Below are positions 1-31,338 of a stretch of 49,612 nt of DNA, piece after piece. The DNA comes from an uncultured Mycobacteriaceae bacterium (GTDB lineage: Bacteria > Actinomycetota > Actinomycetes > Mycobacteriales > Mycobacteriaceae). Positions within the stretch are counted from its first letter, which is position 1; each line of letters opens with the position of its first letter. The stretch covers positions 1 to 49,612 of the forward strand of contig CADEGF010000054.1 in NCBI GenBank assembly GCA_902826815.1, given 5' to 3'. A program made the position numbers and the translations under genes. Below the pieces are notes generated by a model, which worked only from the letters and a program-made list of their open reading frames with translations, did no database searches and was not told where the DNA came from.

Positions 1-105
1 GGCCACGTGGCCCGCAGCTTCGACTCCTGCCTGGTGTGCACGGTGCACGCCTACGACGGCAAGGGTCGGGAGCTGTCCAAGTTCGTGATCAATGGAATGG
101 TGTGA
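1..105 (+). CDS. [NiFe]-hydrogenase large subunit, C-terminal end (partial)
   Basis: Only the last 34 codons are in the window; the reading frame is open at the left edge. The segment contains DSCLVCTVH, which fits the C-terminal L2 cysteine motif (DPCxxCxxH in most families) that holds the Ni-Fe site, with Ser in place of the usual Pro. After the motif histidine come 18 residues ending in INGMV, the size of the tail removed by the maturation endopeptidase. That protease is encoded directly downstream and overlaps this gene by four bases. The gene order after it resembles the mycobacterial huc (group 2a-like) locus, so HucL is the likely identity, but the class cannot be settled from 34 residues. 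Confidence 0.88.
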   Translation, partial: GHVARSFDSCLVCTVHAYDGKGRELSKFVINGMV

Positions 106-944
106 TCGCTACGTCTGCTGAGCCGTGCGCTGACCGCAGCGGTGCCGATGTCGACATCGAGCCGCCGGGTTGTGCGGTGCTCGTTGTGGGCTGTGGGAAC
201 CTGCTGCGCGGCGACGACGGGGTCGGGCCGATCCTGGTGCGTCACCTGTGGGAGCGCGGAGTTCCCGACGGTGCCCGGCTGGTCGACGGTGGCACGGCAG
301 GAATGGATGTCGCGTTCCAGATGCGCGGCGCCGAAAGGGTCGTGATCATCGATGCAGCGGCCACCGGTGCGGCGCCGGGCACCGTCTACCGGGTGCCCGG
401 CGCGGAACTGGAGGAGCTGCCGCCCCTGCAGGGACTGCACACCCATTCGTTCCGCTGGGACCACGCAATCGCGTTCGCGCGCTGGGCACTTCGCGATGCA
501 TGCCCAAGCGACATCACCGTCTTCCTCATCGAGGCGAGTGGGGTGGATCTCGGCGCTGACTTGACCGAGCCGGTCGAGTCGGCGATGGAGCAGGTCATCG
601 ACATCATCGAACGCGACTACCTCGCAGGCCTTCGGCCCGCGGCATCGCCGGACCTGCAGGTGGAGTTCACCGCAGACGGTTACCTCCGCCTTGACGCAGC
701 GCTGGCGGCCAGCCGGTTCCCGTCGGATGCTGTCGTCGCCGTCGTGCGGGACGGCGACCTGTGGCTGGTACCACTGCGTGGGCCACGCAGCGGCGGGCTG
801 CTGCTCAAGCAACGTAACCCGGCAGGCGACCGCACCACCCTGGTGCGGGAAGTCCTCGAAGACCACATTCCAACGGGCGTCCACGGTGCATTCTGGGACG
901 ATGCCCAAGCAGCGCTCCGTATTCCGCTGGGGTCTGGCGCGTGA
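102..944 (+). CDS. Hydrogenase maturation endopeptidase (HupD/HybD family) with extra C-terminal domain
   Basis: This protease removes the C-terminal tail of the hydrogenase large subunit after nickel insertion. The GTG start at 102 overlaps the upstream stop (GTGA), giving 280 aa. The N-terminal ~180 residues show the family landmarks: VGCGNLLRGDDGVG (acidic residue at the position of HybD Glu16), DGGTAGMD, IIDA (HybD Asp62 region) and LHTHSF (HybD His93 region). Stand-alone proteases of this family are about 150-190 aa. Here about 90 further residues (roughly 185-280) form a separate module with no motif I recognise; it could assist recognition of this large subunit. No putative start upstream is preferable, because earlier in-frame codons lie inside the hydrogenase gene. 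Confidence 0.88.
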   Translation: MIATSAEPCADRSGADVDIEPPGCAVLVVGCGNLLRGDDGVGPILVRHLWERGVPDGARLVDGGTAGMDVAFQMRGAERVVIIDAAATGAAPGTVYRVPGAELEELPPLQGLHTHSFRWDHAIAFARWALRDACPSDITVFLIEASGVDLGADLTEPVESAMEQVIDIIERDYLAGLRPAASPDLQVEFTADGYLRLDAALAASRFPSDAVVAVVRDGDLWLVPLRGPRSGGLLLKQRNPAGDRTTLVREVLEDHIPTGVHGAFWDDAQAALRIPLGSGA

Positions 945-1192
945 CTGTCATGTGTGAGGAACGCCCCACCCGGCCGAAGACCGCGCGCCGCCTCGACAGC
1001 TCAACCGACGATGCGGTCGACGTGCAGACGTTCGTGGTCGGGGACCATGGCCGCTGGGCGGTGGAGATCGCCGTGGTGTTCGCCGACGGCGTTGTGCGCC
1101 ACCGCATCGAGACGCACCCGACCAAGGCGCGTGCCGAGATTTCGGCCGGTCTCATCAAACGGGCCGCGGAACGTGACGGGCGGCAGCTGTGA
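941..1192 (+). CDS. Small conserved hydrogenase-operon protein, unknown function
   Basis: The GTG start overlaps the protease stop by four bases (GTGA), and the next gene begins just after its stop, so it sits inside the hydrogenase transcription unit. It encodes 83 aa (80 from the internal ATG at 950). The N-terminal third is basic and polar; the C-terminal half (VEIAVVFADGVVRHRIETHPTK) looks like a compact alpha-beta fold with no cysteines after residue 5 and no membrane segment. I do not recognise a family. Position between the protease and the TPR gene suggests an accessory role in hydrogenase assembly or regulation, which is inference only. Confidence 0.7.
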   Translation: MTVMCEERPTRPKTARRLDSSTDDAVDVQTFVVGDHGRWAVEIAVVFADGVVRHRIETHPTKARAEISAGLIKRAAERDGRQL

Positions 1193-1236
1193 GTACAGGA
1201 CAAGTGCGAGCTACCAGGAATAGGGGATCTGAACCC

Positions 1237-2517
1237 ATGACGGCACTTCACACTGACGCCGAGTTCACCGGGCCGGCCGCCGTTGCGGTCAGGCCACAGC
1301 CGTTGGGCGCATTTCCGCTTCCGTTGGGCTACATGCTGATACCGGCCGTATCTAGCACCGGCGCCGACACGGAGGCGGCGCGCGCAGCGCTGGTGTCCGG
1401 CAACGTGCCGCAGGAGTGGCCGGACGGACTTTCGGCACATGAATTCGCGCTCGCCGGCGACAGGAACGCCGCGCTGGCGGCGCTGCAGGGTACCGACCCG
1501 GTGACGCGCTACAACCGGTTCGTCCTCGATCCGGACGGCGAGGATCCGGACGAACTGCGTTCGGATCTCGGCGAATTCGGTTTGTTGGTCGACCTTGTGC
1601 TGTTCACGCTTGGTCGATCGGACACCCCACCCGAACCAGGCGCCGCGGACGGCGAGCTAGCCGCGGTTGCGCTTTCGGCGCAAGCGAGTCATGCCCTGCA
1701 CGACGGAGATTCGGTGGGCGCCATCGAATTACTCGAGCGTGCGACGGCCACGATATCCCCCGATTCGGGGTGCCTACCCGGTGTTCTCGTCGGCGCTACG
1801 GCCTCGATCTGCCGGGATCTCGGCGACCCGGCCGCCGCGCAACGACTCGAGCAGGCGCTGCGTCTGCTCGGCGACGCAAACGGTCTTCGCATCGGTCGTG
1901 CCGAACTTCATCTGAACCTCGCAGGACTGCTGCACGAGCAGGCCGAGGACCATCCCGAGCTGCTCGCCCAGGCGATTCCGCACTACCACTCCGCACTGCA
2001 GTTGGTGCTGCGCGACGAGGCGCCGCTGTTGTGGGCGGCCACGCACGCCAACCTCGCCACCGCCTACCTGACGATGCCGATGGTGGAGGCATCCGGCCAG
2101 CTTCGCCTGGGTGTCGCCGCGCAGTCACTGCGGTCAGCGCTGAAGGTGTACACCAGGGAGACCCACCCCGAGCAGTGGGCGAGTGTGCAACTGAACCTTG
2201 CCAATTCGCTGGTGTACACGCCGTCCAAACACCAGGCGGACAACCTTGTCGAGGCCGTCGAACTCTACGAGGGAGTGCTGGAAGCCAGGGACCGGGAGAC
2301 CGATCCCCTCGGTAGGGCCAGGGTGCTGGCCAACCAGGGCAACGCACTGGCGCATCTCGGGATGTTCGACCAAGCCAAGGCGAAGCTGTATGAAGCGCGC
2401 TTCCTGTTCGAGGACCTCGGAGACGAGGAATCAGTGCGCGCCGTACGCGGAGTACTCGACGAGGTTGCTCGTCAACTGGTGCTGATGCGCACCGAACCCG
2501 AACCCGAACCCGACTGA
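1237..2517 (+). CDS. TPR-repeat-like protein of the hydrogenase operon
   Basis: This encodes 426 aa from ATG 1237, which has purine-rich AGGAA/AGGGGA signals at 1216-1227. A GTG at 1189, overlapping the previous stop, would add 16 residues and is the alternative. From about residue 150 on, the protein is a run of helical pairs with TPR-like spacing (ALHDGDSVGAIELLERA, THANLATAYL, VQLNLANSLVY, LANQGNALAHLGMFDQAKAKLYEA), with no signal peptide or transmembrane segment. TPR proteins usually act as binding scaffolds. Its place before a NifU-Rieske gene suggests a scaffold for hydrogenase assembly or electron-transfer partners. The acidic Pro-Glu tail (EPEPEPD) is low-complexity. Confidence 0.78.
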   Translation: MTALHTDAEFTGPAAVAVRPQPLGAFPLPLGYMLIPAVSSTGADTEAARAALVSGNVPQEWPDGLSAHEFALAGDRNAALAALQGTDPVTRYNRFVLDPDGEDPDELRSDLGEFGLLVDLVLFTLGRSDTPPEPGAADGELAAVALSAQASHALHDGDSVGAIELLERATATISPDSGCLPGVLVGATASICRDLGDPAAAQRLEQALRLLGDANGLRIGRAELHLNLAGLLHEQAEDHPELLAQAIPHYHSALQLVLRDEAPLLWAATHANLATAYLTMPMVEASGQLRLGVAAQSLRSALKVYTRETHPEQWASVQLNLANSLVYTPSKHQADNLVEAVELYEGVLEARDRETDPLGRARVLANQGNALAHLGMFDQAKAKLYEARFLFEDLGDEESVRAVRGVLDEVARQLVLMRTEPEPEPD

Positions 2518-2528: not shown

Positions 2529-3440
2529 ATGTCAGCCACCACCGTGGAGCCGTCCACCGCCCGCCCGCCCGCCGTGGACGCAGTCGATTTCGAGAGTCTC
2601 GCCAAGCGGGTTGACGACGCGATCGCCGCGCTGGAGAGCTTGGACTCCTCGGCGCGTGCCGTCGCGGACGAAGTCAAGGCGGCCGTTGAGGCCATTCACC
2701 GCGCCGGGCTGGTCACCATCGTGCAACGGATGCGGGCCGACGATGGTGCCCGCGCTCTGCTGTTCGACCTGGTCGACGATCCGGTCGTGCACATGCTGCT
2801 CTCATTGCACGAGATCGTGCGTCCCGACCCGATGACACATGCCAACCGCGTTCTGGTGACGGTGCGGCCCCAATTGCAGAGCCACGGCGGCGATGTCACC
2901 CTGGTGCGGATCGAGGAGGGTATCGCCTTCGTCCGTCTCGACGGCGCTTGCAACGGATGTTCCATGTCGTCGGTGACGCTCCGAAACCTCGTCGAGGGCG
3001 CACTGGTGGAAGGTGTTCCGTCGATCACGGGCGTCGAGGTGGTGCCGAATGAGCCCTCACCGACGCTGATACCGCTGGAGTCGCTGCGCATCGGGCCGGA
3101 CCCCGCGAGTGAAGGCTGGGTCAGGGTGGGTCCCGCCGCGAGTTTGCCGACCGACGACCTCACCGCGCTGAGTCTGTCTTCGGAGTCCGGTGAGCCTGCC
3201 GACATCATCGTGGTGAACGCCGGCCAGCGATTGTCGGCGTACCGTAACGAATGTGCCCACGAAGGGCTGCCCCTCGATAACGCTGTCCTCGATCTCGACA
3301 ACGGCACCCTGACATGTCCATGGCACGGGTTCTGCTACGACGCGACATCGGGGGAGTGCCTCAGCGCACCCGGCGCCCAGCTGGAGCAGGTGCCGCTGCG
3401 GGTCGATTCCGGCGAAGTGTGGGTTCGGGTCGGGACATGA
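2529..3440 (+). CDS. NifU C-terminal domain / Rieske [2Fe-2S] fusion protein
   Basis: This encodes 303 aa with a strong GAGGAGG ribosome site at 2516-2522. The first ~100 residues are helical and unrecognised. Residues about 105-180 match the NifU C-terminal (Nfu) domain, with HGGDV and the CNGC cluster ligands Cys141 and Cys144. Residues about 190-300 form a Rieske-type domain with ligand pairs Cys242/His244 (CAHEG) and Cys263/His266 (CPWHG). It therefore probably carries or delivers two kinds of Fe-S centre. In a hydrogenase operon it could relay electrons from the small subunit toward the respiratory chain, or deliver clusters. The first role is inferred from the Rieske domain and the operon context. 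The downstream NHL gene overlaps by four bases. Confidence 0.88.
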   Translation: MSATTVEPSTARPPAVDAVDFESLAKRVDDAIAALESLDSSARAVADEVKAAVEAIHRAGLVTIVQRMRADDGARALLFDLVDDPVVHMLLSLHEIVRPDPMTHANRVLVTVRPQLQSHGGDVTLVRIEEGIAFVRLDGACNGCSMSSVTLRNLVEGALVEGVPSITGVEVVPNEPSPTLIPLESLRIGPDPASEGWVRVGPAASLPTDDLTALSLSSESGEPADIIVVNAGQRLSAYRNECAHEGLPLDNAVLDLDNGTLTCPWHGFCYDATSGECLSAPGAQLEQVPLRVDSGEVWVRVGT

Positions 3441-4639
3441 CCCAGTTCACCGTCCGTCACAACATCGGCAGGACGTCGGTTCGGGCCGAGCCAGGCCTCG
3501 ATGCCGCCGGCGCTGACCTCAGCGACGGATGGTCACCAGACGTCTGGCTCGGGGCCCCCGCACCCGGCGGTCTCGCTTTGCCGCCTGCCAGCCCGACGAT
3601 GGCGTGGATGTATTCGCCGCGGGGAGTCTTCCTCGGCGAGGATCACCTGGTGGTCGCCGATTCCGGCAACCATCGGGTGCTGGTCTGGCACGGCATTCCC
3701 GACAACGACGAGCACCCTGCCGATATCGTTCTCGGCCAGCGGGACGGCATTACCGAGGGCCGCGCCGCCGGTGGTCGCGGACCCGAGCGGGGCATGAATC
3801 TGCCGACCGGCGTCCTCGTGCACGATGGCCGACTCATCGTCGCCGACGCCTGGCACCACCGGATCCTGGTGTGGAACTCGGTGCCGCAGGCAAGCGACAT
3901 GGCGCCCGATCTGATCCTCGGGCAGCACGACCCGGCCGCTGTTCAGCCGAATCGCGGCGGCCAATGCTCGGCGGCGACGTTCTACTGGCCGTTCGGCATA
4001 GCGATCGTGGGTGCACGGTTCTGGGTCGCAGACACCGGCAACCGCAGAGTTCTTGGTTGGGACAACGGAATTCCCGACCCCGGGCAGCCGGCTGATGTCG
4101 TGCTGGGTCAGCCTGACGGGGCGCACCGCGACGAGAATCGTGGCGCTGCCGCCGGCCCCGCCAGCTTCCGCTGGCCGCATGACGTCACCGGAAACGACGA
4201 ACTGCTGCTCATCGCCGACGCGGGCGATCACCGACTGCTCGGCTGGTCGCCGCATCCGGCGGCGGACCGGGACGCGGACATCGTGCTTGGTCAGCCGGAT
4301 TTCACCTCGGCTGACGAATGGCCCTACGGCCCGCACACCGGGGACAGGTTCCGCTTTCCCTACGCCGCGCGACTGGACGGCTCCGCAGGCAAAGGCGAGA
4401 GGTTGGCGGTCGCGGATACCGCCAATAACCGAATCCTGCTGTGGGACACCATTCCCCGTGATGGTCGAGCCGCTGACCACGTGCTGGCGCAACCGAGTTT
4501 CGCGTCCAACGGCGAGAACCGCTGGACGTCGGTGCAACGCGACACGCTGTGCTGGCCGTACGGCATCTCGCTGCGGGGCGATCGGCTGGCCGTGGCGGAT
4601 TCCGGCAACAACCGGGTCGTGATTTGGCGGCGCAGATGA
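3437..4639 (+). CDS. NHL-repeat (beta-propeller) protein of the hydrogenase operon
   Basis: ATG 3437 overlaps the preceding stop (ATGA), giving 400 aa. The sequence is built from about six repeats centred on [60 protein letters not shown] and [12 protein letters not shown], each followed by a segment of the form ADIVLGQ. This is the NHL beta-propeller signature. No signal peptide is evident, so a cytoplasmic or membrane-peripheral location is likely. NHL propellers bind proteins or ligands; together with the TPR and NifU-Rieske neighbours it probably belongs to an accessory complex of the hydrogenase. The exact role is unknown. Confidence 0.88.
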
Positions 4640-7008
4640 TCGACACCTCGCTGCGGCTACGGTCCGATGACGTCCGGTATCGGTTCACGGTGACCGGCGT
4701 CGTCCAAGGGGTCGGTTTCCGTCCGTTCGTCCACCGGACCGCCGTCGAACTCGGGTTGTCGGGATTCGTCGGCAACGATTCGAGCGCGGTTTTCGCCGAG
4801 GTGCAGGGCCCGAAGGCCGCCGTCGACGAGTTCGCTCATCGGCTTCGCGTCGATGCGCCGCCGCTCGCGATGATCAGCACCGTATCCGCGGTCCAGATCG
4901 ACGCCGACGGGAACTGTCCGGTCGACTTCCGCATCGTGGCGAGCCGGACGGTCGACGGTGCCGCAACGGCGATTCCGCCGGACATCGCGGTGTGCGACGA
5001 CTGCATCGCCGAGCTCTTCGACCCCAACGACCGGCGTTACCGCCACCCGTTCGTGACGTGTACGAACTGCGGGCCGCGGTTCACGATCATCCGCGAGCTG
5101 CCGTACGACCGGCCGGCCACCACAATGGCGGGCTTCGAGATGTGCGCGAGGTGCGCCGCCGAATACCACGATGCATCGGACCGGCGATTTCATGCCCAGC
5201 CCGTCGCCTGCCCGGATTGCGGGCCGTCGCTGTGGTACCGATCGGATGCCCGCCGGGTCGTCGGCTCAGACCCCGCGTTGGCGGCGACCCAGCGGGCGCT
5301 GATCGACGGCGCCGTCGTCGCGATCAAGGGCGTCGGTGGATATCACCTGGGCTGCGCCGTCGACGACGACGCCGCGGTCGCGACGCTGCGCGCACGAAAG
5401 GCCCGGGGCGGCAAGCCGTTTGCGGTCCTGGTCCGCGATCTCGATGTTGCGCGACGGTACGCAGAGATCGACGACGATGCGGCCGCGGTCTTGTGCAGCC
5501 CTGCCCGTCCGATCGTGCTGCTCCGGCGCAGGCCCGATGCGCCGATCTCTGAGCTGGTAGCGCCGGGCAGCCCGCTGATCGGGCTGATGCTGCCGTATTC
5601 CCCTATCCACCACCTGCTTCTGGCAACCATTCCTGGAGTGCAGACGACGGTGCCGGAGGCGCTGGTGCTGACCAGCGCCAACCAAACGGATGAACCGATC
5701 TGCTTCACCGATGACGATGCGGCGCAGCGACTTCCGTACCTATCCGATGCGGTGCTCGACCACGACCGGCCCATCCACGTGCCGTGCGACGATTCGGTCG
5801 TGCGTGTCGTTGACGGACGGGAACTGCCGATCCGCCGGTCCCGCGGCTACGCGCCGCTGCCGATCGACCTCGGAGCCATCGCACGCAACGGGCCCGCGGT
5901 GCTGGCCGTCGGCGGCGAACTCAAGAACACCTTCTGCCTTACCGACGGAACGCGCGCGTTCTGCTCAGGCCACATCGGCGATATGGGCACGTTGGAGACG
6001 TTGCGGGCGTTCGAACGCGCCGTCGACCAGCTCAGCGGAATCCGGCAGGAACCGCAGCGGCTGGCAGCGGATCTCCATCCCGGGTATCAGACCCGCAGCT
6101 GGGCGGAGCGCCACGCCGGTGAGCGCCCGCTGGACCTTGTTCAGCACCACCACGCGCACGTCGTGTCGTTGCTCGCCGAACACGGCAGGCTCGGCGAACC
6201 GATCATCGGTGTCGCCTTCGACGGCACCGGCTACGGCTGCGACGGAACGGTGTGGGGCGGGGAGATTCTGTCCGTCGGACCCGACGCGCACCGCTTTACC
6301 CGCGTGGGTCACCTCAAGCCCGTGCCCCTGCCTGGTGGTGATGTCGCGGTGCGGAATCCGTGGCGGATGGCGCTGTCGCACCTGTGGGCGGCGGGCATCG
6401 AATGGGACGAAGACCTGGCACCCGTTGCCGCGGCTACCCGCGCTGAGCAGCGGCTGCTGCGATCTCAGCTCGCCAGCGGAGTGGGCTGCGTGCCGTGTTC
6501 GAGCATGGGTCGGCTGTTCGACGCGGTCGCCGCGCTGCTCGGTGTGCGGCAGCGGATCGATTACGAGGGCCAGGCCGCCATCGAACTGGAGGCGCTGGCC
6601 GAATCGGTGGGCGATTCGCCACCCGCGCCCGCAACGCGGCTGACTGTCAGTGCCGACGGGGTGATCGACGCTGCCGAGTTGATGGCGACGATTGTGTCGG
6701 AGCGTCGCGCAGGCGTCGAGCCCGCGGTTTTGGCGGCCGCCTTCCACGAGGCGGTGGCGGTCGCCGTTGCCGAGGTGGTCGGACTTGTCGCAGGCCCGGT
6801 TCGTTTGGTCGGACTCACCGGCGGGGTATTCCAGAACGTGCTGCTGCTGCGAGCGTGTCGGCGGCGGCTACAGCAGGCGGGATTCCTGGTGCTCACCCAT
6901 CACACCGTTCCGCCCAATGACGGTGGGCTCGCGCTCGGGCAGGCGGCGGTGTCCGTGCTGACCGCGCTGGACCCGCTCAACGGTTCCCACGAGGAGGCGC
7001 AGAGATGA
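4636..7008 (+). CDS. hypF: HypF carbamoyltransferase, hydrogenase maturation
   Basis: HypF makes the cyanide ligands of the Ni-Fe site from carbamoyl phosphate and ATP, passing a carbamoyl group to the C-terminal Cys of HypE. ATG 4636 overlaps the NHL stop (ATGA) and gives 790 aa, close to family length (~750). Domains in order are: acylphosphatase ([14 protein letters not shown], about 20-33); two zinc-finger modules ([13 protein letters not shown] and [12 protein letters not shown], about 115-200); YrdC-like ([21 protein letters not shown]); and the Kae1-like C-terminal domain with [15 protein letters not shown] and [16 protein letters not shown]. All modules look intact. It overlaps the next gene by four bases. 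Confidence 0.97.
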
Positions 7009-7727
7009 TCTCGACCGAAATAGACCGAGGGCTCGGCGCAGATCTGGCCGCCGATCTCGCCGCGACAGCACTCTCCCTCGCGAGGCGGTTCTCCGCAGGC
7101 GCCACCATGTGGTCGATCGCGCCGTCGTGGCAGCCGCACGCCCAGCACATCGCCGTCGAGTTCGTGCATCCGGTGATCGTCGGCAAGAGGGCGCTGCCTG
7201 CGGTCGCGCTGACCGGACCGGAACTGGTGGACGTGGTGCGGGTGTCGGTCCGGCCCGGCGACATCGTGATCGCGGTCGCCGATGCCGACGACCCCGAGGT
7301 TCGGTCGGTGATGCGCCGGAGCCCGGCCTGGGGTGCCACCACCATCTGGATCGGTAGCGGTGAGCGACCCCAGGCGGGGGCCGCCGACCACGTTCTGTGG
7401 CTGGACGACCCGGATCCGACGGCGCCCGCGACCGGCGCCTTCGTGCTGCTCTATCACCTGCTGTGGGAACTGACCCACGTCTGCTTCGAGCACCCGGGTC
7501 TGCTGAAGCCGACGGAATGCACCGAGGAGGTGTGCATCACCTGCAGCGACGAGGGCCGCCTCGGCGAAGTGCTCGGCGCCTCGGCGCAGGGTTCGGCTCA
7601 GGTACGGACCCCCGAAGGGGTGGAGACCGTCGCTACGACGCTCGTCGACCCGGTCGCGGCGGGCGAGCTCGTCCTGGTACACGCCGGGATGGCGATCAGC
7701 AGAGTGGATATTGGGGGTGACTCATGA
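7005..7727 (+). CDS. Two-domain protein: SIS-like N-terminus fused to a HypC/HupF-like domain
   Basis: ATG 7005 overlaps the hypF stop; the product is 240 aa. Residues 1-170 look like a sugar-isomerase (SIS) type alpha/beta domain ([28 protein letters not shown]), weakly similar in layout to the GmhA-like neighbour. Residues about 175-240 resemble Hyp[15 protein letters not shown], then [21 protein letters not shown], which matches the HypC ending LVLVHVGFAI. In classical HypC the catalytic cysteine is residue 2, exposed after Met removal. Here the equivalent Cys177 is internal and followed by Cys180. A canonical HypC is also encoded at 9543, so this is a second, specialised chaperone-like protein. 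Confidence 0.8.
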
Positions 7728-8413
7728 GCCAGGAACAGCCCGGCGTCAACGTGGACCAAGATGCTGAGCAGGAGCCCACCAACTTCCTCTATCCCTTCAT
7801 CGATGCGCAGGAAGACGACCCGAACTCGCTACTCGTCGATCTGGCAGCGTCAGCGCAGGCCAAGGCGGCCGAGAGCGCCGCGCTGCGCCGATCCACCCTG
7901 GAGTCGAGCACAGAACTGGTGGCAAAAGCGGCGGCCGAGATGGCGGCTCGATTCGCGGCGGGCGGGCGGCTGTTCGCCTTCGGCAACGGTGGCAGCTCCA
8001 CCGATGCCACCACGCTTGCGACGCTGTTCGCGCGGCCGCCGACGGGGAAACCCTTGCCGGCCTGGTCGTTGACCGCCGACCAGGCGATCTTGACCGCGCT
8101 CGGCAATGACGTCGGCTTCGAGCTCGTCTTCGCCCGACAGCTGATCGCCCGCGCCAGGGCCGGGGACATCGCGGTTGCCATGTCCACCAGTGGCAGTTCG
8201 CCAGACCTGACGGTCGCCCTGCGGGAAGCGCGTCAGCGGGGGATGTACACGGTGGGCTTCGCCGGATACGACGGTGGCACGTTCGCGACCAGCCCGGATG
8301 TCGACGCCTGCTTCATCGTCCATTCGCAGAGCGTGCACCGAATTCAGGAATCGCAGGCGCTGCTCGGCTACCACCTGTGGTCGGCCGTGCACGAGCAGGG
8401 GACGGATATCTGA
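7724..8413 (+). CDS. SIS-domain protein, GmhA (phosphoheptose isomerase)-like
   Basis: ATG 7724 overlaps the previous stop (ATGA); 229 aa. After a ~50-residue N-terminal extension the protein has the SIS fold landmarks: GGRLFAFGNGGSSTDATTLAT (phosphosugar-binding loop), GNDVGFELVFARQL, and GDIAVAMSTSGSSPDL. It ends with HRIQESQALLGYHLWSAVHE, as in GmhA. True GmhA converts sedoheptulose 7-phosphate for heptose synthesis; in mycobacterial hydrogenase loci, GmhA-like proteins sit among hyp genes with no known substrate. The location between the HypC-like fusion and hypE suggests a role in maturation or in sensing a metabolite, which is inference. Confidence 0.88.
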   Translation: MSQEQPGVNVDQDAEQEPTNFLYPFIDAQEDDPNSLLVDLAASAQAKAAESAALRRSTLESSTELVAKAAAEMAARFAAGGRLFAFGNGGSSTDATTLATLFARPPTGKPLPAWSLTADQAILTALGNDVGFELVFARQLIARARAGDIAVAMSTSGSSPDLTVALREARQRGMYTVGFAGYDGGTFATSPDVDACFIVHSQSVHRIQESQALLGYHLWSAVHEQGTDI

Positions 8414-9525: not shown

Positions 9526-9542
9526 GAAAGGATGTGACGAAA

Positions 9543-12713: not shown

Positions 12714-13073
12714 ATGAGCGTCTATTTGCCGATCCTCGTTCTCGGCGCGATCGCGGCTGGGTTCGCGGTTGGCTCGGTGGGGATCGCGTTGGTGATCGGT
12801 CCGCGTCGGTACAACCGGGCCAAGCTCGAGGCCTATGAGTGTGGCATCGAGCCTGCCCCGCAGCTGACGGGGGTGGGCCGGTTCCCGATCAAGTTCTACC
12901 TGACCGCGATGTTGTTCATCGTGTTCGACATCGAGATCGTGTTTCTGTACCCGTGGGCGGTGTCATTCCGCCAACTGGGCGTCTTCGCACTGGTCGAGAT
13001 GCTGCTGTTCATGCTGACCGTGTTCGTGGCCTACGCCTACGTATGGAGGCGGGGTGGCCTGAATTGGGACTAG
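12714..13073 (+). CDS. nuoA: NADH-quinone oxidoreductase subunit A
   Basis: NuoA is a small membrane subunit of complex I at the junction of the peripheral and membrane arms. The product is 119 aa with three hydrophobic segments (about 5-25, 60-82, 88-108) and the signature YECGIEP followed by [25 protein letters not shown] (split here as [12 protein letters not shown] and [10 protein letters not shown]), which is almost invariant in the family. It starts a 14-gene operon, nuoA-N, in the standard order. The nuoB start overlaps its last codons. Confidence 0.97.
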
Positions 13074-22651: not shown

Positions 22652-22947
22652 ATCCCGCCAATTACCTCTATTTGTCGGCGTTGTTGTTCACCATCGGCAC
22701 GTCGGGAGTTCTGTTGCGCCGCAACGCGATCGTCATGTTCATGTGTGTCGAGTTGATGCTGAACGCCGCCAACGTGGCGTTCGTCGCGTTCTCCCGGATG
22801 CACGGTCACCTCGACGGTCAGATGGTGGCGTTCTTCACCATGGTGGTCGCCGCCTGCGAAGTGGTGGTCGGCCTGGCGATCATCATGACCGTCTTCCGCA
22901 CCCGCAGCTCGACCTCCATCGACGACGCGAACCTGCTGAGGCACTGA
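22648..22947 (+). CDS. nuoK: NADH-quinone oxidoreductase subunit K
   Basis: NuoK is an MrpC-like membrane subunit of complex I. ATG 22648 overlaps the nuoJ stop; 99 aa with three membrane helices. Conserved features are [20 protein letters not shown] near the N-terminus and the intramembrane glutamate in [16 protein letters not shown], followed by [13 protein letters not shown] with the second conserved Glu. The next gene begins one base after its stop. Confidence 0.97.
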
Positions 22948-22948
22948 A

Positions 22949-24847
22949 ATGTACGCGCTGGTGTGGATGTTGATCGGACTGCCGCTGGCCGGTGCCGCGG
23001 TGCTGCTGCTGGCCGGTCGGCGCAGCGACCGGTGGGGGCACCTGCTGGGGTGCGCTACGTCTATCGCTGCGTTTGCGTTCGGGATGGTGCTCTTCTTCGA
23101 ACTGCTCGGACGAGGCGCCGCCGACCGCGTTCTGCACCAGAACCTGTTCTCCTGGGTACCGGTCGGCGGGCTGCAGGTCGACTTCGGCCTGCAACTCGAC
23201 GTGCTGTCGATCTGTTTCGTGCTGCTGATCACCGGCGTCGGGTCGTTGATCCACATCTACTCCGTCGGCTACATGAAAGAGGACGCAAGTCGCCGACGCT
23301 TTTTTGGGTATCTCAACCTGTTTCTGGCCGCCATGTTGCTGCTGGTGCTCGCCGACAACTACCTCGGACTGTATTTCGGCTGGGAAGGCGTCGGTCTGGC
23401 GTCCTACCTGCTGATCGGGTTTTGGTCGCACAAGCCGTCGGCGGCGGTCGCAGCCAAGAAGGCCTTCGTGGTCAACCGGGTTGGCGACGTCGGACTGGCG
23501 GTCGCGATCTTGGTGATGTTCGCGACCGTCGGCTCCATCTCCTATGCATCGGTGTTCGGCGCCGCCCCGGTGCTGTCAGAGAGCACCCTGACCGCAATTG
23601 GGCTGCTGTTGCTGCTCGCCGCGTGCGGCAAGTCGGCGCAGGTTCCGCTGCAGTCCTGGCTCGGCGACGCCATGGAGGGCCCCACGCCCGTCTCCGCGCT
23701 GATCCACGCCGCCACCATGGTGACCGCCGGCGTTTACCTGATCGTCCGCTCAGGGCCCGTTTTCAACCTGGCCCCGAACGCGCAGCTGGCGGTGGTGATC
23801 GTCGGCGCAGTCACCTTGTTGTTCGGGGCGATCGTCGGGTGCGCCAAGGACGACATCAAAAAGGCACTTGCGGCCTCCACCATGAGCCAGATCGGGTACA
23901 TGGTGCTCGCTGCCGGCCTCGGACCGGCCGGCTATGCGGTGGCGATCATGCACCTGCTGACCCACGGCTTCTTCAAGGCCGGCCTGTTCTTGGGCGCCGG
24001 TTCGGTGATGCACGCCATGGACGACGAAGTCGATATGCGTCGCTACGGCGGTCTGCGCAAGTTCCTGCCGATCACCTTCGCCACCTTTGGGCTCGGGTAT
24101 CTGGCCATCATCGGGGTGCCGCCGTTCGCGGGGTTCTTCTCCAAGGATGCAATCATTGAAACCGCCTTCGGCGCAGGAGGACTCAAGGGCCTGATCCTCG
24201 GCGGCACCGCGCTGTTGGGTGCGGGGATCACCGCGTTCTATATGACACGCGTCATGCTCATGACGTTCTTCGGTAGGGCGCGGTGGACTGAGGGAGAAAA
24301 CGGGGCAAGTCACCACCCACACGAATCACCCTCCGTCATGACCTGGCCGATGATCGTCCTCGCCGTCGGCTCCGTCGCAGGCGGTGCCCTGCTGGCCATC
24401 GGCGGGACCCTGCAACACTGGCTCGAACCGGTGGTCGGCAGCCATGAAGCCGAGCACGCCATGCCCGTCTGGGTGATGACCACCATCACCATGGCCGTCA
24501 TCGCCTGCGGCATCGCCATCGCCTACGTCATGTATGCCACCCGGCCGGTGCGAAGCAGTGCCACGTCCTGGGTTTCGGCGCCGACGGTCGCCGCCCGCGC
24601 CGACCTGTACGGCGATGCGATCAACGAGGCGGTTTTCATGCGGCCCGGTCATGCCCTTAGCCGTTCGCTGGTCGACGTCGACAGGCGGGGGATCGACGGG
24701 TTGGTGGAGGCATTCGCCCGGCTGGTCGGCGGATCATCGGATCGGATTCGGCAGCTGCAGAACGGGTTCGCGAGATCCTATGCGCTGTCCGTGTTTGTCG
24801 GTGCCACCTTGGTGGTGGCGGCCATCACCCTAGTGAGGTTGTGGTGA
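22949..24847 (+). CDS. nuoL: NADH-quinone oxidoreductase subunit L
   Basis: NuoL is the distal antiporter-like subunit with the long lateral helix. The product is 632 aa with about 15-16 membrane segments. Visible motifs are [36 protein letters not shown] (key Glu of helix 5), the broken-helix segment [20 protein letters not shown], and [19 protein letters not shown]. The terminal ~100 residues give the lateral helix and an extra membrane span. nuoM starts in its last codon. Confidence 0.97.
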
Positions 24848-26436
24848 GTCACTTTCCGTGGTTGACCGCGTTGTGGTTGTTACCGATGCTGGGCGCCATT
24901 GCCATCGTGGCGCTGCCCGTCACCGCGCGGCACCTCGCAAAGTACGCGGCGGTGGTGGTCGCGGTCGCGGTGCTCGCCATCGCGATCCTGCTGGCCGTCC
25001 AGTTCAACCCCGACGGTGAGCGGTACCAGTTCGTCGAAAGCCGCACCTGGATACCGTCATTCGGCGCCGGCTACATCCTCGGAATCGACGGTATCGCGCT
25101 GGCTCTCGTCGTACTCACCGCCGTGCTGGTACCGCTGCTGCTCATCGCAGGCTGGAACGACGCCGGCGATTCAGGGCGGTCCACCCACACCTACGTCGCC
25201 CTCACCCTGGCGGTCGAGGCCATGGTGCTGATCTCGCTGGTTGCCCTCGACATACTGCTGTTCTTCGTGTTCTTCGAGGCGATGCTGATCCCGCTGTACT
25301 TCCTCATCGGCGGCTTCGGCAGGGGCAACCCAACGCCGGAAGCCGCCGCGAGTCGATCGCGAGCTGCTCTGAAGTTTCTGCTGTACAACCTGTTCGGTGG
25401 CCTGATCATGCTGGCCGCGGTGATCGTCCTGTATGTGGTGACCGCGCAGAACGACATCGTCCCCGGCACGTCCGGCACCTTTGATTTCCGCGCTATCGTG
25501 ACGGCGGTCTCGAGCGGTCAGTTGGGTGTCAACCCCGCCGTGGCGAACGCGATGTTCCTCGGCTTCATGTTTGCCTTCGCCGTCAAGGCGCCGTTGTGGC
25601 CGTTCCACACCTGGCTGCCGGGCGCGGCGGTGGAGGCCACACCGGCGACCGCAGTGCTGATGATGGCGGTTGTCGACAAGGTCGGCACCTTCGGCATGCT
25701 TCGCTATTGCCTGCAGCTGTTTCCAGACGCCGCAACGTATTTCCGGCCGGTCATCATCACCCTGGCGGTCATCGCGATCATCTACGGCGCGATCGTCGCG
25801 ATCGGCCAGACCGATGTGATGCGGCTGATCGCATTCACCTCGATCTCGCACTTCGGGTTCATCGTCGTAGGCGTCTTCGTGATGACCAGCCAGGGGCAGT
25901 CCGGCTCAACCCTGTACATGGTCAACCACGGCATCTCCACGGCGGCGCTGTTCCTGATCGCCGGATTCCTGGTGTCGCAGCGGGGCAGCCGCGCCATCGC
26001 CGATTTCGGCGGGGTACAGAAGGTCGCGCCCGTGCTGGCGGGCACCTTCCTGGTAGCGGGGATGGCGACCCTCGCACTACCCGGCCTGGCTCCCTTCATC
26101 AGCGAATTCCTCGTTCTGATAGGCACATTCACCCGCTACCCGGTCTTCGCGGTGCTCGCCTCCATCGCGCTGGTGCTCTCGTCGGTCTACATCCTGTGGC
26201 TCTACCAGCGGATGATGACCGGGCCCCTCGTCGACGGCAACGAAAAGGTGCGCGACCTGCGACCCCGGGAGATCGCCGTCGTCGCGCCACTCATCGCCCT
26301 GCTGTTGGTGCTCGGCGTCTACCCCAAACCCGCCCTCGATGTGATCAACCCGGCGGTCGCCCACACCTTGACCACCATCGGCCAGCACGACCCCGCGCCG
26401 ACCGTGCCACAGACTGCCGAAGGGGCGCACCCGTGA
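24844..26436 (+). CDS. nuoM: NADH-quinone oxidoreductase subunit M
   Basis: NuoM is an antiporter-like proton-pumping subunit. GTG 24844 overlaps the nuoL stop (GTGA); a GTG one codon earlier is equivalent. The product is 530 aa with about 14 membrane helices. Conserved parts are [40 protein letters not shown] (catalytic Glu), [20 protein letters not shown] and [16 protein letters not shown]. The family usually reads HTWLPDAHVE; here Gly-Ala replaces Asp-Ala. nuoN overlaps by four bases. Confidence 0.97.
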
Positions 26437-27968
26437 ACCTGCCCACACCGAGCGTCGAATACGGCCAGCTGTTCCCGATGCTGATCGTGTTCGCCGCGGC
26501 CGTCGCCGGCGTCATGGTCGAGGCGTTCCTGCCCCGGCATACCCGCTACCGGATTCAACTCCTTCTCAGTGTCGGGGCGCTGGTCCCGGCGCTGGTTGCC
26601 GTCATCGCGCTGGCCGGAACCCGGCACGCGGCGGTCGGTGGCGCGGTGGCCGTTGACGGGCCGACCCTGTTCGTGCAGGGCACCATCCTGCTCATCGGAC
26701 TGCTGGCGATACTGCTCATCGCTGACCGTCGCGCCGACGGCGCGCTGGAAGGTTTCACCCCGCAGGCATCCGCAACTCCGGGCAGCGTCGCCCAACTCGA
26801 AGCCACCAGGGCGCGGGTTGCCCAGACCGAGGTGTTTCCGCTGACGATGTTCGCGCTCGGCGGGATGCTGCTCTTCCCCGCCGCCAACGACCTGCTGACG
26901 ATGTTCATCGCGCTCGAGGTGTTCTCGCTACCGCTGTATCTGCTCTGCGGGCTGGCCCGCCGTCGTCGCGTGCTTTCCCAAGAATCCGCACTGAAATACT
27001 TTCTGCTTGGCGCTTTCTCGTCCGCGATCTTCCTGTACGGCATCGCGCTGCTCTACGGCTATGCAGGCACCCTCACGCTGACCGGGATCGGCGACGCGGT
27101 AGCCGCCAACTCCGGCAACGTCTCGCTGGCGCTGGTCGGCATGGGCCTGCTGTCGGTCGGTGTCTTGTTCAAAGTCGGTGCGGTGCCATTCCATTCGTGG
27201 ATACCCGACGTCTATCAGGGCGCACCAACGCCGATCACCGCGTTCATGGCCGCCGCCACCAAGATCGCCGCATTCGGTGCCATGCTGCGCATCTTCTACG
27301 TTGCACTGCCCGGGCTCCGCGACGACTGGCGGCCCGTGATGTGGGCGGTCGCCATCCTTACCATGGTGGCGGGTTCGGTCATGGTTGTCAGTCAGACCGA
27401 CGTCAAGCGGATGCTGGCCTATTCCGCTGTCGCGCAGGCCGGCTTCATCCTCATAGGTGTGGTCTCCGCGAACAGCGCTGGGCTGTCCTCGACGCTGTTC
27501 TACCTGGTCGCCTATGGCTTCAGCGCGCTCGGGGCATTCGCCGTCCTCACTCTGGTTCGCGCGCCCGATGGTGAGGAGGACAGCGAGCTGGCCCGCTGGG
27601 CCGGACTCGGGCGGCGCGCACCGCTGGTCGGTGTGCTGTTCTCGGTGTTTTTGCTTGCCTTCGCAGGGATTCCGCTTACCAGCGGCTTCGTCGCCAAGTT
27701 CGCGGTGTTCAAGGCCGCCGGTGAGGGCGGCGCGATCCCGCTCGTCATCATCGGTGTCATCGCCAGCGCCATCGCCGCATTCGTCTACGTGCGCGTGATC
27801 CTGTTGATGTTCTTCGCGGCACCGCACCGCGACGGGCCACAGGTGGCGGCGCCCAGTTCGATGACCGCCACAGCCATTCTGGTGGGAGTCGCGGTGACGG
27901 TGCTTTTCGGAATCCTGCCGCAGCCGCTGCTGGACCTGGCGGGTAACGCCGGCGCATTCCTGCGCTGA
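26433..27968 (+). CDS. nuoN: NADH-quinone oxidoreductase subunit N
   Basis: NuoN is the third antiporter-like subunit and the last gene of the operon. GTG 26433 overlaps the nuoM stop; 511 aa with about 14 membrane helices. Family motifs are FIALEVFSLPLYLLCGLARR, ESALKYFLLGAFSSAIFLYG, FKVGAVPFHSWIPDVYQGAP and AYSAVAQAGFILIGV. It is followed after 20 bases by the convergent end of phosphoribulokinase, with no obvious T-run terminator between. Confidence 0.97.
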   Translation: MNLPTPSVEYGQLFPMLIVFAAAVAGVMVEAFLPRHTRYRIQLLLSVGALVPALVAVIALAGTRHAAVGGAVAVDGPTLFVQGTILLIGLLAILLIADRRADGALEGFTPQASATPGSVAQLEATRARVAQTEVFPLTMFALGGMLLFPAANDLLTMFIALEVFSLPLYLLCGLARRRRVLSQESALKYFLLGAFSSAIFLYGIALLYGYAGTLTLTGIGDAVAANSGNVSLALVGMGLLSVGVLFKVGAVPFHSWIPDVYQGAPTPITAFMAAATKIAAFGAMLRIFYVALPGLRDDWRPVMWAVAILTMVAGSVMVVSQTDVKRMLAYSAVAQAGFILIGVVSANSAGLSSTLFYLVAYGFSALGAFAVLTLVRAPDGEEDSELARWAGLGRRAPLVGVLFSVFLLAFAGIPLTSGFVAKFAVFKAAGEGGAIPLVIIGVIASAIAAFVYVRVILLMFFAAPHRDGPQVAAPSSMTATAILVGVAVTVLFGILPQPLLDLAGNAGAFLR

Positions 27969-27988: not shown

Positions 27989-28873
27989 CTATCGGACGCT
28001 GAGTTCGGTCGCCCGACGCTCCCGCAGCCGCAGCACCATCGGAGTGAAGATGAGTTGCATCGCGAGGTCCATCTTGCCGCCCGGGCACACGATGGTGTTC
28101 GGACGTGACATGAACGAATCATGCAGCATCGAAAGCAGATACGGGAAGTCGATGCCGTGCGGGTCACGGAACCGGATGATGAGCATGGATTCGTCAGCCG
28201 TTGGAATGGATCTGGCGATAAAGGGGTTCGAGGTGTCGACAACGGGCACCCGCTGGAAGTTGACGTCGGTCTCCGAGAACTGGCGGCACATGTAGTTCAC
28301 GTAGTCGGGCATCCGCCGCAGGATCGTGTCGGTGACGGCCTCTGACGTGTAGCCGCGGGTCGACTTGTCGCGATGCAGCTTCTGAATCCACTCCAAGTTG
28401 ATCACAGGAACGACCCCGATGCGCAGGTCGGCATACTGCGCGACGTTCGCATCGTCTGTCACGATCGCGCCGTGCAGGCCCTCGTAGAACAGCATGTCGG
28501 TATCGGGAGGAATCACCTCCCACGGGGTGAACGTGCCGGGCTCCTGCCCGTACGGTTCTGCCTCCTTGTCGTCGTGGAGGTAGCGGCGGACCTTACCGCT
28601 CCCCGTCTCCCCGTACGCCTGGAACAGATCCTGGAGTTCGGTGAATAGGTTCGCCTCCGGCCCGAAGTGGCTGAAAGTGTGGTTGCCACGGGTATGAGCA
28701 TCCGCTATCGCGGCCTTCATCTCGGCGCGGTCGTAGCGGTGGAAGCTGTCGCCCTCGACGAACGCGACGTTCATACCCTCGCGCCGGAAGATCTGGTCGA
28801 AGGTGCGCATCACCGATGTGGTGCCGGCCCCCGAAGAACCGGTGACCGAGATGATCGGATGCAGACGAGACAT
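27989..28873 (-). CDS. prkB: Phosphoribulokinase
   Basis: Phosphoribulokinase makes ribulose 1,5-bisphosphate from ribulose 5-phosphate and ATP and is diagnostic of the Calvin-Benson-Bassham cycle (cbbP). ATG 28873 with GAGGAAGGA upstream gives 294 aa, typical of the bacterial class I octameric form. Motifs are the P-loop SVTGSSGAGTTSV, FVEGDSFHRYDRAEMK, FYEGLHGA and RMPDYVNYMCRQFSETDVNF (split as RMPDYVNYM and QFSETDVNF). It lies 14 bases after the fructose-bisphosphatase gene, whose stop overlaps its ribosome site, so the two form an operon. RuBisCO is not in the window. Confidence 0.95.
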   Translation of the reverse strand: MSRLHPIISVTGSSGAGTTSVMRTFDQIFRREGMNVAFVEGDSFHRYDRAEMKAAIADAHTRGNHTFSHFGPEANLFTELQDLFQAYGETGSGKVRRYLHDDKEAEPYGQEPGTFTPWEVIPPDTDMLFYEGLHGAIVTDDANVAQYADLRIGVVPVINLEWIQKLHRDKSTRGYTSEAVTDTILRRMPDYVNYMCRQFSETDVNFQRVPVVDTSNPFIARSIPTADESMLIIRFRDPHGIDFPYLLSMLHDSFMSRPNTIVCPGGKMDLAMQLIFTPMVLRLRERRATELSVR

Positions 28874-28887
28874 TGTCTTTTCCTTCC

Positions 28888-29961
28888 TCAACCAACTGTG
28901 GAGCGGAACAGCCCACGGGTGCCGTAGAGCGGTGAATCGCCCGGGTGGTCGTTCTTTTCGCGGTGATAGGACTCGATACGCTCCACTTCTTCTTTCACGC
29001 CGAAGATGAAGGGCACGCGCTGGTGTATGTGGTCAGGGACGACGTCCAGCATCCGGCCCCGGCCGGTGCTCGCCGCTCCGCCGGCCTGCTCGATGAGGAA
29101 AGCCATCGGGTTGGCCTCGTACAACAGGCGGAGCCGGCCCGGCTTGGCCGGATCCTTTGTATCGCGGGGATAGAGGAAAACGCCTCCGCGAGTGAGAATG
29201 CGGTGCGTTTCGGCCACGAGCGAGGCAACCCACCGCATGTTGAAGTCCCGCTGTCGTGGCCCGGACCGGCCTGCGAGGCACTCGTCGATGTAGCGCGTCA
29301 CCGCAGGTTCCCAGAACCGGCGGTTCGAGGCGTTGATCGCGAACTCTTTTGCGGTGGGAGGGATTTGAAAAGCTTGACGGGTAAGTATGAATTCACCCAA
29401 CCCAGGATCCAGGGTAAACGCGTGGACCCCTGTCCCGACCGTGAGGACGAGCAGCGTCGACGGGCCGTAGAGGGCGTAGCCGGCACATACCTGCTCCGAT
29501 CCCGGCTGCAGGAAGTCGTCGACGCTGGGGTCGGCACCGGGATCGGGGGCCCGCAGGATGGAAAAGATGCTGCCTACGGAGACGTTGACGTCGATATTCG
29601 AGGATCCATCCAGCGGGTCGAAGACCAGAAGGTACTTGCCCCTGGGGTATTGGACCGGCAGCACGTAGGGGTCATCGAGTTCCTCGGACACCATCCCCGC
29701 GACTTGGCCACCCCATTCGTTGGTGCGCAGGAAGTAGTCGTTGGCGAGGATGTCGAGCTTTTGCTGGACTTCGCCCTGCACATTCACCGCGTCGGCGGAA
29801 CCGACCGCGCCGCCGAGTTCGCCTAGCGCGACCCGGTTGGCGATCGCTTTGCATGCGAGGGCGACGTCGAGAATGAGTGCGTTGAGTTCACCACTCGCGC
29901 CCGGATGGCGTTGCCGTTCCTCGATGAGGAACCGCACCAGAGTCGTGTGGTTGGTCAGCAT
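28888..29961 (-). CDS. fbp: Fructose-1,6-bisphosphatase, class I
   Basis: Class I FBPase releases phosphate from fructose 1,6-bisphosphate (Calvin cycle and gluconeogenesis; cbbF). ATG 29961 has AGGTAGGAAAA upstream; 357 aa. Key motifs are VSEELDDPYVL (metal-binding Glu), FDPLDGSSNIDVNVSVGSIF (metal/phosphate site), SNRRFWEPAV, and RDTKDPAKPGRLRLLYEANP (substrate-binding Arg/Lys region). Mycobacteria normally use the class II enzyme GlpX for gluconeogenesis, so a class I copy next to phosphoribulokinase points to a dedicated Calvin-cycle enzyme. It is divergent from the response-regulator gene. Confidence 0.95.
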   Translation of the reverse strand: MLTNHTTLVRFLIEERQRHPGASGELNALILDVALACKAIANRVALGELGGAVGSADAVNVQGEVQQKLDILANDYFLRTNEWGGQVAGMVSEELDDPYVLPVQYPRGKYLLVFDPLDGSSNIDVNVSVGSIFSILRAPDPGADPSVDDFLQPGSEQVCAGYALYGPSTLLVLTVGTGVHAFTLDPGLGEFILTRQAFQIPPTAKEFAINASNRRFWEPAVTRYIDECLAGRSGPRQRDFNMRWVASLVAETHRILTRGGVFLYPRDTKDPAKPGRLRLLYEANPMAFLIEQAGGAASTGRGRMLDVVPDHIHQRVPFIFGVKEEVERIESYHREKNDHPGDSPLYGTRGLFRSTVG

Positions 29962-30119
29962 TTTCCTACCTCGTTCCAGCATGTGGGCGGCCGAGACCAA
30001 AGGTTCAGTACATGCTGTGCCAGGCGGTGACGTGGACCATCCCCCTGGCGGGTGGACCGACGGGGGGACAGCGACCGTCACACCGAGAAGCCGGCCGGAC
30101 CGCGCTAGCATCGGCGGCC

Positions 30120-30578
30120 ATGACCGAGGCGACGACAGCGATTGGCGCGGCGCGCTTACGCGTGCTCGTCTACAGCGATAACGCCGGGACCCGTGGGCAG
30201 ATCATCCAAGCGCTGGGCACACGTCCGCGCGCTGACCTGCCGGAAATCGACTACCTCGAGGTCGCGACTGCCTCGGTGATCATCGAGTGGGTTGACGCAG
30301 GCGACGTCGACCTGGCCATCTTGGACGGTGAAGCCACACCGGCGGGCGGGATGGGTATTGCCAAGCAACTCACCGACGAGGTCGAGGGGTGCCCGCCGAT
30401 CCTGATCCTGACCGGGCGCCCGGACGACGCGTGGCTGGCGCACTGGTCGCGAGCCGACGCCGCCGTGCCGCACCCGATCGACCCGATCCGGCTGGCCGAG
30501 GCCGCCATACCGTTACTGCGCATCCGCCGGAAATCACCCGGTCCTCCACCCACGCGGGTGGGTTCGCGGCGGCCGTGA
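30120..30578 (+). CDS. Response-regulator receiver-like protein (Rv3143 type)
   Basis: This encodes 152 aa with a single receiver-like domain and no output domain: LRVLVYSDNAGTR (start of the fold), VDLAILDGEATPAGGMG (position of the phospho-acceptor Asp in strand 3) and PPILILTGRPDDAWLAHWS, followed by a lysine-poor end. The pattern strongly recalls M. tuberculosis Rv3143, which lies just upstream of nuoA there. Here it follows nuo but is separated by fbp-prk. Possible -10 element TAGCAT at 30106-30111 lies eight bases before the ATG, so the mRNA may be leaderless. No histidine kinase is adjacent. Confidence 0.87.
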   Translation: MTEATTAIGAARLRVLVYSDNAGTRGQIIQALGTRPRADLPEIDYLEVATASVIIEWVDAGDVDLAILDGEATPAGGMGIAKQLTDEVEGCPPILILTGRPDDAWLAHWSRADAAVPHPIDPIRLAEAAIPLLRIRRKSPGPPPTRVGSRRP

Positions 30579-30618
30579 TGCGGTCGGATGAACACACCCG
30601 ATCAGAAAGGCCGCGACC

Positions 30619-31338
30619 ATGACAGCACCCATGAAAACGGACAGCCTCAAGCAGGCGCTCATCGTGCCTTCGGTGTTGCCCGCCGACTTCGCCCGCCTCG
30701 GCGACGAGGTGAGGGAGTTGTGCGAGGCGGGCGTGGACCGGATCCAGTGGGATGTCATGGACGGTGTGTTCGTCCCAAACCTCACCTTCGGCCCTGACGT
30801 CATCGCGGCGGCGCGCCCGCACAGCACGGTCGGGTTCGAAGCCCATCTCATGGTCGTCAACCCCGACGAGCCCCTCGGGCGGTACGTCGACGCGGGATGC
30901 GAGCTGGTCATCGTGCACGCCGAAGCCTGCACGCACCTCCACCGCACTCTCGCGCGCATCCGCGACCTCGGCGCGCGCAGCGGCGTCGCGCTGAACCCGC
31001 ATACTCCCGCAGAGGTTGTCGAGCATGTCCTGCCCGTGACGGACATGGTCCTCGCCATGACCGTCAACCCGGGATTCGGTGGCCAGTCCTACATCTCTGC
31101 CGTGGAGCCGAAGATCGCGCGCCTGCGACGGATGATCGACGAATCCGGGCTGCCGATCGAGCTCGAGGTCGACGGCGGCATCACAGACAAAACCATCAAG
31201 GGCGCGTCCGCCGCCGGCGCCGATGTCTTCATCTCCGGCTCGTGGATGTATGCGTACCCGGACGGCAAGGCGGCTGCCGTCAAACAGCTGCGTGCCGCCA
31301 CGATCGATAACTCACTGCAAGCCTCGTCCCGGCGGTAG
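30619..31338 (+). CDS. rpe: Ribulose-phosphate 3-epimerase
   Basis: Interconverts ribulose 5-phosphate and xylulose 5-phosphate (pentose phosphate and Calvin cycles; cbbE). The product is 239 aa with GAAAGG upstream of ATG 30619. TIM-barrel signature segments are PSVLPADFARLGDEV, WDVMDGVFVPNLTFGP, FEAHLMVVNP, MTVNPGFGGQSYI and LEVDGGIT (catalytic Asp residues in strands 2 and 7, metal-binding His). It is 40 bases after the response regulator on the same strand. With fbp and prk nearby it may be a second, cbb-linked copy. Confidence 0.95.
   Translation: MTAPMKTDSLKQALIVPSVLPADFARLGDEVRELCEAGVDRIQWDVMDGVFVPNLTFGPDVIAAARPHSTVGFEAHLMVVNPDEPLGRYVDAGCELVIVHAEACTHLHRTLARIRDLGARSGVALNPHTPAEVVEHVLPVTDMVLAMTVNPGFGGQSYISAVEPKIARLRRMIDESGLPIELEVDGGITDKTIKGASAAGADVFISGSWMYAYPDGKAAAVKQLRAATIDNSLQASSRR

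Follow-up and report, generated by a model that had tools for sequence, protein, structure and literature searches.

Hydrogen-driven autotrophy is already known from mycobacteria (PMC12999727); one reported isolate, Mycobacterium mageritense H4_3_1, came from H2/CO2 reactors, has a complete Calvin cycle along with a group 2a hydrogenase and was cultured under H2/CO2/O2 (PMC10497747), and growth on H2/CO2/O2 has been described for further mycobacterial isolates (PMC13413523). The [NiFe] hydrogenase Huc of M. smegmatis has been reported to reduce menaquinone directly (PMC10017518), and second copies of complex I, the NADH:quinone enzyme encoded by nuoA-N, are already known from chemolithoautotrophs, as in Nitrospina (PMC3578206). 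How aerobes that feed H2 electrons to menaquinone supply NADH for CO2 fixation is, in our judgement, usually assumed and rarely tested. Here, we describe a stretch of 49,612 nucleotides from an uncultured Mycobacteriaceae bacterium (the window; positions 1-49,612 of contig C54 in a genome of 6.87 Mb in 141 contigs, 99.9% complete), in which hydrogenase genes, a second complete complex I operon and Calvin-cycle genes lie side by side and which appears, from gene order, to form the right-hand portion of an island that links hydrogen oxidation to CO2 fixation (hydrogen-to-CO2 island). Our literature search, with many subscription papers outside its coverage, found no report of a second or dedicated nuo operon in a RuBisCO-positive mycobacterial huc-cbb island, of its tie to RuBisCO, or of a nuoLM remnant.

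A second complex I beside hydrogenase and RuBisCO genes

Profile (family) scans, by which the gene families of the window were assigned, identified all 14 complex I subunits, NuoA through NuoN, in order and in one operon; NuoF matched TIGR01959 (630.1 bits) and contained the FMN-binding domain PF01512 (153.9 bits). Since the 2M form of complex I has two nuoM genes in its operon, the window operon, with one nuoL, one nuoM and one nuoN, does not belong to that form. An initial annotation of the window had not seen that this operon is a second, island-bound copy. The source genome holds two nuoD genes, on C54 and C34, which are 82% identical, and the idea that the window operon is the housekeeping copy was rejected because C34 carries nuoA-N preceded by the gene for Rv3143, a regulator reported to bind NuoD and to modulate complex I (PMC9274095). 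The same flank, with the Rv3143 gene before nuoA, was found for the other housekeeping operons mapped, the gene being undetected in a few, and M. frederiksbergense LB 501T has one nuo operon with Rv3143 ahead and another inside its huc-cbb cluster.

With regard to integrity, full open frames were found for 257 of the 261 genes measured in 19 island copies (those of 18 two-copy genomes and of genome G220) and for 541 of 545 genes in housekeeping copies, so that both sets are about equally sound; one of the four remaining island genes, nuoF of G220, is cut by a contig end. Matched pieces of 19 gene copies contained stops, most of which the open-frame check traced to alignment run-over. Every island copy read keeps 53 of the 54 cysteines that are invariant in housekeeping copies, and in the window 2197 of the 2240 columns invariant across 39 housekeeping copies are unchanged.

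The initial annotation had listed hydrogenase maturation and accessory genes, a complete nuoA-N, fbp-prk, rpe and tal within 40 kb, which the profile scans bear out, and had proposed a module for H2-supported CO2 fixation, suggesting a search of the genome for RuBisCO and transketolase. That search located a single match to the RuBisCO large subunit, on C111, a contig of 9.6 kb that encodes fba (class I aldolase), cbbL, cbbS, cbbX, a LysR regulator (cbbR), an AraC regulator, a DUF1641 protein, hucS and hucL. The reverse complement of C111 ends in the first 55 bases of the window, an exact overlap inside hucL that places cbbL approximately 7-8 kb upstream of the window; bases 1-105, which had gone unrecognized, are thus the 3' end of hucL. 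In four relatives (G132, G285, G303 and G177), a single contig carries cbbL, hucL, nuoD and prk, arranged in this order within approximately 37 kb; the whole island was read gene by gene in G132, and G285 was read in part. To judge from its best matches of solved structure, the RuBisCO is red-type form I, the form name being our interpretation, and with both RuBisCO subunits and phosphoribulokinase the genome encodes the defining genes of the Calvin-Benson-Bassham cycle. According to a published survey, hydrogenase genes in general lie more than 80 genes away from RuBisCO or prk (PMC7895386), which makes the linkage in the island unusual.

Transketolase (tkt) was found on C48, which begins inside an incomplete gap gene and also carries a two-component pair, tkt, a second phosphoribulokinase gene, a HAD phosphatase gene, hypB and a hydrogenase similar to that in PDB entry 5aa5. 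This second phosphoribulokinase is of the PRK07429 subfamily (346.9 bits; L013 4329-5333). No end overlap was found between C48 and C111; C48 may nevertheless continue C111 across a gap, a join that we infer because fba, pgk, gap and tkt are consecutive in G285.

The hydrogenase itself is Huc-like, with HucL closest to the solved M. smegmatis Huc (PDB 7utd and 7uus; 1034-1036 bits), and the genome's two remaining full [NiFe] large subunits, encoded on C48 and C36, are closest to 5aa5. Together with RuBisCO in the genome and its linkage through C111, this hydrogenase supports the proposed module for H2-supported CO2 fixation as a candidate function of the locus.

Distribution and history of the island complex I

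We searched 297 genomes of the genus for cbbL, prk, hucL, nuoD and nuoL; in each genome the survey scored the 4 to 7 best candidates, which means that a distant second copy could be missed, and all candidates were rescored for 38 genomes, nearly all of them RuBisCO-positive. Within this sample, the second complex I is confined to RuBisCO-positive mycobacteria. Two nuoD genes occur in 19 of the 41 cbbL-positive genomes (the second copy being broken in G017) and in none of the 256 cbbL-negative ones, among which are 45 that carry hucL. Overall, cbbL was found in 41 genomes, prk in 41 and hucL in 82; cbbL and prk occur together in 40, G289 having prk without cbbL and G301 cbbL without prk. While 37 of the 41 cbbL-positive genomes have hucL, 45 of the 82 hucL-positive genomes lack cbbL, and the cbbL genes of the four genomes without hucL (G146, G201, G260 and G301) are merely 72-79% identical. 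Two nuoL rows were obtained for 31 of 41 cbbL-positive versus 5 of 256 cbbL-negative genomes (G040, G066, G130, G157 and G244), in which the rows represent fragments or copies. G289, without a cbbL match, has a hyp-rpe-prk-fbp stretch (L178), and this island may have lost RuBisCO.

All 37 genomes with both cbbL and hucL keep island complex I genes, as an operon in 25, as nuoL-nuoM only in 11 and as nuoF only in one. The 19 second operons all lie inside the huc-cbb cluster, as established gene by gene for 18 and by coordinates alone for G269. Eleven are of the window type, following orf378 or its neighbours and preceding prk (the G225 contig ends before prk), and seven are of a second type located between fba and cbbR. 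Six further island operons (G048, G050, G116, G151, G183 and G220) are truncated by contig ends, and for these a housekeeping partner was looked for in G220 only; a loss of complex I in five RuBisCO-positive drafts without nuoD was rejected, as contig ends inside the island nuo operon explain them. In the 11 reduced islands (L175, L177, L185-L193), nuoL and nuoM stand alone between prk and orf378, with full-length open frames in 22 of 22 genes and a single nuoD elsewhere in the genome, and in G090 nuoF stands alone between fba and cbbR-cbbX (431 residues, no stop; L202 7414-8706).

With regard to its history, a concatenated tree splits the island copies without a single clade, and the segment trees conflict with each other. 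In the tree of nuoN, which is among the least converted genes, 20 island-type copies (that of G006 included) fall on one side of a branch, with a support of 78 that is not strong. Within a genome, the two copies are nearly identical in patches (in G193, 97-100% identity for nuoA-E and 70-86% for nuoF-N; in G163, 100% for nuoB, 99% for nuoD, 80% for nuoG and 77% for nuoN), which suggests gene conversion between the island and housekeeping copies. Position 257 of NuoM is threonine (T) in 19 of 19 island copies and 11 of 11 nuoLM copies versus arginine (R) in 38 of 38 housekeeping copies. The T was considered as a new adaptive change and rejected, since three of three Nocardia copies and the one Pseudonocardia copy also have it; T is thus probably the older state and R a change in the mycobacterial housekeeping copy. 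One old origin with later conversion would be the simplest and best-fitting reading, though not a proven one. Five Nocardia with Calvin genes have one nuoD each; in G305, G308 and G309, a few kb separate the nuo operon and its Rv3143 gene from the Calvin genes, nuo is near them by coordinates in G306, and the distance in G307 is approximately 45 kb. This proximity may be how the link began.

Proposed role and alternative explanations

Menaquinol lacks the reducing power for NAD, and NADH must thus come uphill, for which complex I is the known machine. No NAD-reducing (group 3d, HoxH-type) hydrogenase was recognised among the PF00374 matches of the genome, a weak partial match on C13 being left without a family, and hence NADH from H2 would need such uphill electron flow. 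As the second complex I occurs only with RuBisCO, lies in the same island and is accompanied by an Rv3143-type gene, it is best read as a dedicated device. We thus propose, with a probability of roughly 0.6, that Huc oxidises H2 and passes the electrons to menaquinone, and that island complex I, running in reverse, lifts part of them to NADH for the Calvin cycle. Most of the menaquinol would be oxidised by O2, building the proton motive force; the remainder would deliver its electrons to island complex I, which this force would drive backwards, and the resulting NADH would feed the Calvin cycle (cbbLSX, fba, fbp, prk and rpe in the island; tkt and the incomplete gap on C48). The Rv3143-type regulator of the island may tune the island copy of complex I. 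The reverse direction, the dedication to CO2 fixation and the co-regulation are the inferred parts of this proposal.

Several observations weigh against it. The island copy resembles an ordinary NADH:quinone enzyme, and sequence cannot reveal the direction of electron flow; 4 of the 41 cbbL-positive genomes have neither hucL nor a second nuoD; and the association between two nuoD genes and cbbL (Fisher p approximately 6e-19) ignores kinship. One weak [NiFe]-like match, that on C13, has no family assignment. As 11 of 37 islands keep nuoL-nuoM only and one nuoF only, the island does not strictly depend on a whole second complex, and cells with these remnants would have to rely on housekeeping complex I. 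Finally, three island copies have a shortened gene (nuoD in G017, nuoI in G046 and nuoL in G063), the G017 nuoD (L124) being broken into two pieces and containing a stop; the remaining island nuo genes that were measured in G017 are full.

The ordinary NADH/FMN-binding and Fe-S features of the island copy would equally suit an isoform under separate regulation that works in the forward direction, oxidising NADH during mixotrophy or at low oxygen, and is switched together with the island, and the island does have its own regulator of the type that binds NuoD (PMC9274095). We consider this unlikely, however, since a general isoform is not expected to track RuBisCO as closely as the absence of a second nuoD from every cbbL-negative genome, hucL-positive ones included, indicates. 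Retention of NuoL-NuoM in 11 species may reflect a function of these antiporter subunits in their own right, which could pump protons for CO2/bicarbonate uptake or exchange into the housekeeping complex. NdhF3/NdhD3 act in this manner in cyanobacterial CO2-uptake complexes, and the full-length open frames of all 22 isolated genes count in favour of this reading. By contrast, the NuoL proteins of the window and of G014 scored only 268.6 and 279.5 bits against the NdhF3 profile TIGR01960 (cut-off 588.7) but 800.2 and 774.5 bits against the ordinary NuoL profile (cut-off 556), in a test made by profile only, with DabA or CupA partners not searched for; G090, moreover, retained nuoF instead, and we regard selection of the antiporter subunits as the cause of retention as distinctly improbable.

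Least probable, in our view, is a passenger status of the nuo copy, which would then have arisen by chance duplication, be carried along by the island and be undergoing slow loss. Erosion is indeed seen in the nuoLM-only and nuoF-only islands and in the split or shortened genes of G017, G046 and G063, and gene conversion is suggested by stretches in which identity to the housekeeping copy reaches 97-100%. A passenger would not be expected, however, to show much the same share of full frames as the housekeeping genes, or intact frames throughout even the stripped islands, and the T at NuoM position 257 argues for an old lineage that has been kept.

Reverse electron flow through island complex I can be carried further into a speculative version, which we hold to be possible but doubtful. 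In this version, an ancient second nuo operon in the hydrogenase-RuBisCO island would form a complex I used for autotrophy only, pushing electrons from menaquinol to NADH; conversion would keep it compatible with the housekeeping enzyme; and in one clade it would have shrunk to NuoL-NuoM, which would exchange into the housekeeping complex and give a special CO2-fixation form, like cyanobacterial NdhF3/NdhD3. A separate, deletable complex I that is found only with RuBisCO in the sample makes reverse electron flow testable without removing housekeeping respiration, and the nuoLM-only islands raise a second question, namely what job antiporter subunits have in CO2-fixing cells.

Window gene content and comparison with known systems

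Features of the window, with positions counted from its first nucleotide
Feature	Position	Strand	Basis and remarks
hucL 3' end, group 2a [NiFe] hydrogenase large subunit	1..105	+	sequence; remainder on C111; best solved match M. smegmatis Huc
hydrogenase maturation protease	36..944	+	TIGR00072 138.8 bits, PF01750; open frame, true start later, after hucL
island protein, weak TPR match (below cut-off)	1189..2517	+	beside huc in relatives (gene order)
NifU-Rieske iron-sulfur protein	2529..3440	+	adjoins huc; matches under equivalog cut-offs; gene order
NHL-repeat protein, beside huc	3437..4639	+	PF01436 (scanned as 3314-4639)
hypF	4549..7008	+	TIGR00143 742.3 bits; open frame, with the true start further in
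protein with HypC-like C-terminal domain	7005..7727	+	PF01455
SIS-domain protein	7724..8413	+	PF13580
hypE	8377..9525	+	TIGR02124 418.6 bits
hypC	9534..9815	+	TIGR00074 80.3 bits
hypD	9831..10970	+	TIGR00075 501.2 bits
DUF6390 protein	10817..11731	+	PF19927 363.1 bits
orf378, no family	11437..12573	+	conserved in window-type islands, ahead of nuoA (or nuoL)
nuoA-nuoN, second complete complex I operon	12714..27968	+	profile matches; other copy on C34
prk, phosphoribulokinase	27989..28891	-	NF011997 495.7 bits
fbp, class 1 fructose-bisphosphatase	28888..30111	-	NF006779 512.8 bits
Rv3143-type response regulator	30156..30578	+	NF050825 202.9 bits, cut-off 200 (scanned as 30012-30578)
rpe	30619..31338	+	TIGR01163 249.2 bits
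tal, transaldolase	37941-39110		profile scan; right of rpe

The gene set of the window recurs in relatives, and its clustering is thus more than chance. The Rv3143-type regulator gene sits between fbp and rpe and has its paralogue ahead of the housekeeping nuoA on C34; rpe is one of two in the genome, the second, on C37, being 43% identical. Of the window genes that were scanned, none was recognised as hypB; one is present on C48. To the right of the island, the window also holds a gene for subunit I of an aa3-type cytochrome oxidase (33460-35157) and one for a RelA/SpoT-domain protein (40000-40776). Neither tal nor the aa3 oxidase gene has a match in the approximately 17.5 kb right of rpe in G132, and tal, which the initial annotation had counted with the module, was accordingly rejected as a member of the conserved island. 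Other relatives carry additional genes within the island, including, in G116 (L199 5600-18300), genes for a phenol/alkene hydroxylase and for Cpn60 that are flanked by cbbS and prk, and a GH15/trehalase-like gene between the Rv3143-type gene and rpe in G285 (L208 15453-17468).

Among described systems, cyanobacterial NDH-1MS (with NdhF3/NdhD3) and the DAB inorganic-carbon pumps (PMC13144422) resemble the nuoLM-only islands in that NuoL/NuoM-like proteins are tied to CO2 fixation, whereas the NuoL proteins of the window and G014 are not NdhF3 by profile cut-off, partner proteins not having been searched for. NUO-2 of Nitrospina gracilis is likewise an extra complex I in a chemolithoautotroph and has been proposed to serve reverse electron flow; its genes are scattered, it is without the FMN site, and it is proposed to reduce ferredoxin (PMC3578206). 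By contrast, the window nuo genes form one operon beside hydrogenase and Calvin genes and encode an ordinary NuoF, in which PF01512 is present. The hox-hyp-cbb cluster of Achromobacter xylosoxidans H1_3_1 also has genes for hydrogenase, maturation and the Calvin cycle next to one another, but with other hydrogenase groups and a suggested transposable element, and the accessible portion of the report does not mention complex I (PMC10497747). With the mycobacterial complex I of solved structure (PDB 8e9g-8e9i) and the C34 operon, the window operon shares the same 14 genes in the same order, its NuoL scoring 1046.5 bits to 8e9g; it differs from the housekeeping enzyme in being a second copy within an island, in lacking an Rv3143 gene directly before nuoA and in having T rather than R at NuoM position 257. 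Finally, the locus shares with M. smegmatis Huc a close large subunit, the small subunit and the NifU-Rieske and hyp genes alongside, while differing from it in that these genes are here linked to RuBisCO, to Calvin-cycle genes and to a second complex I.

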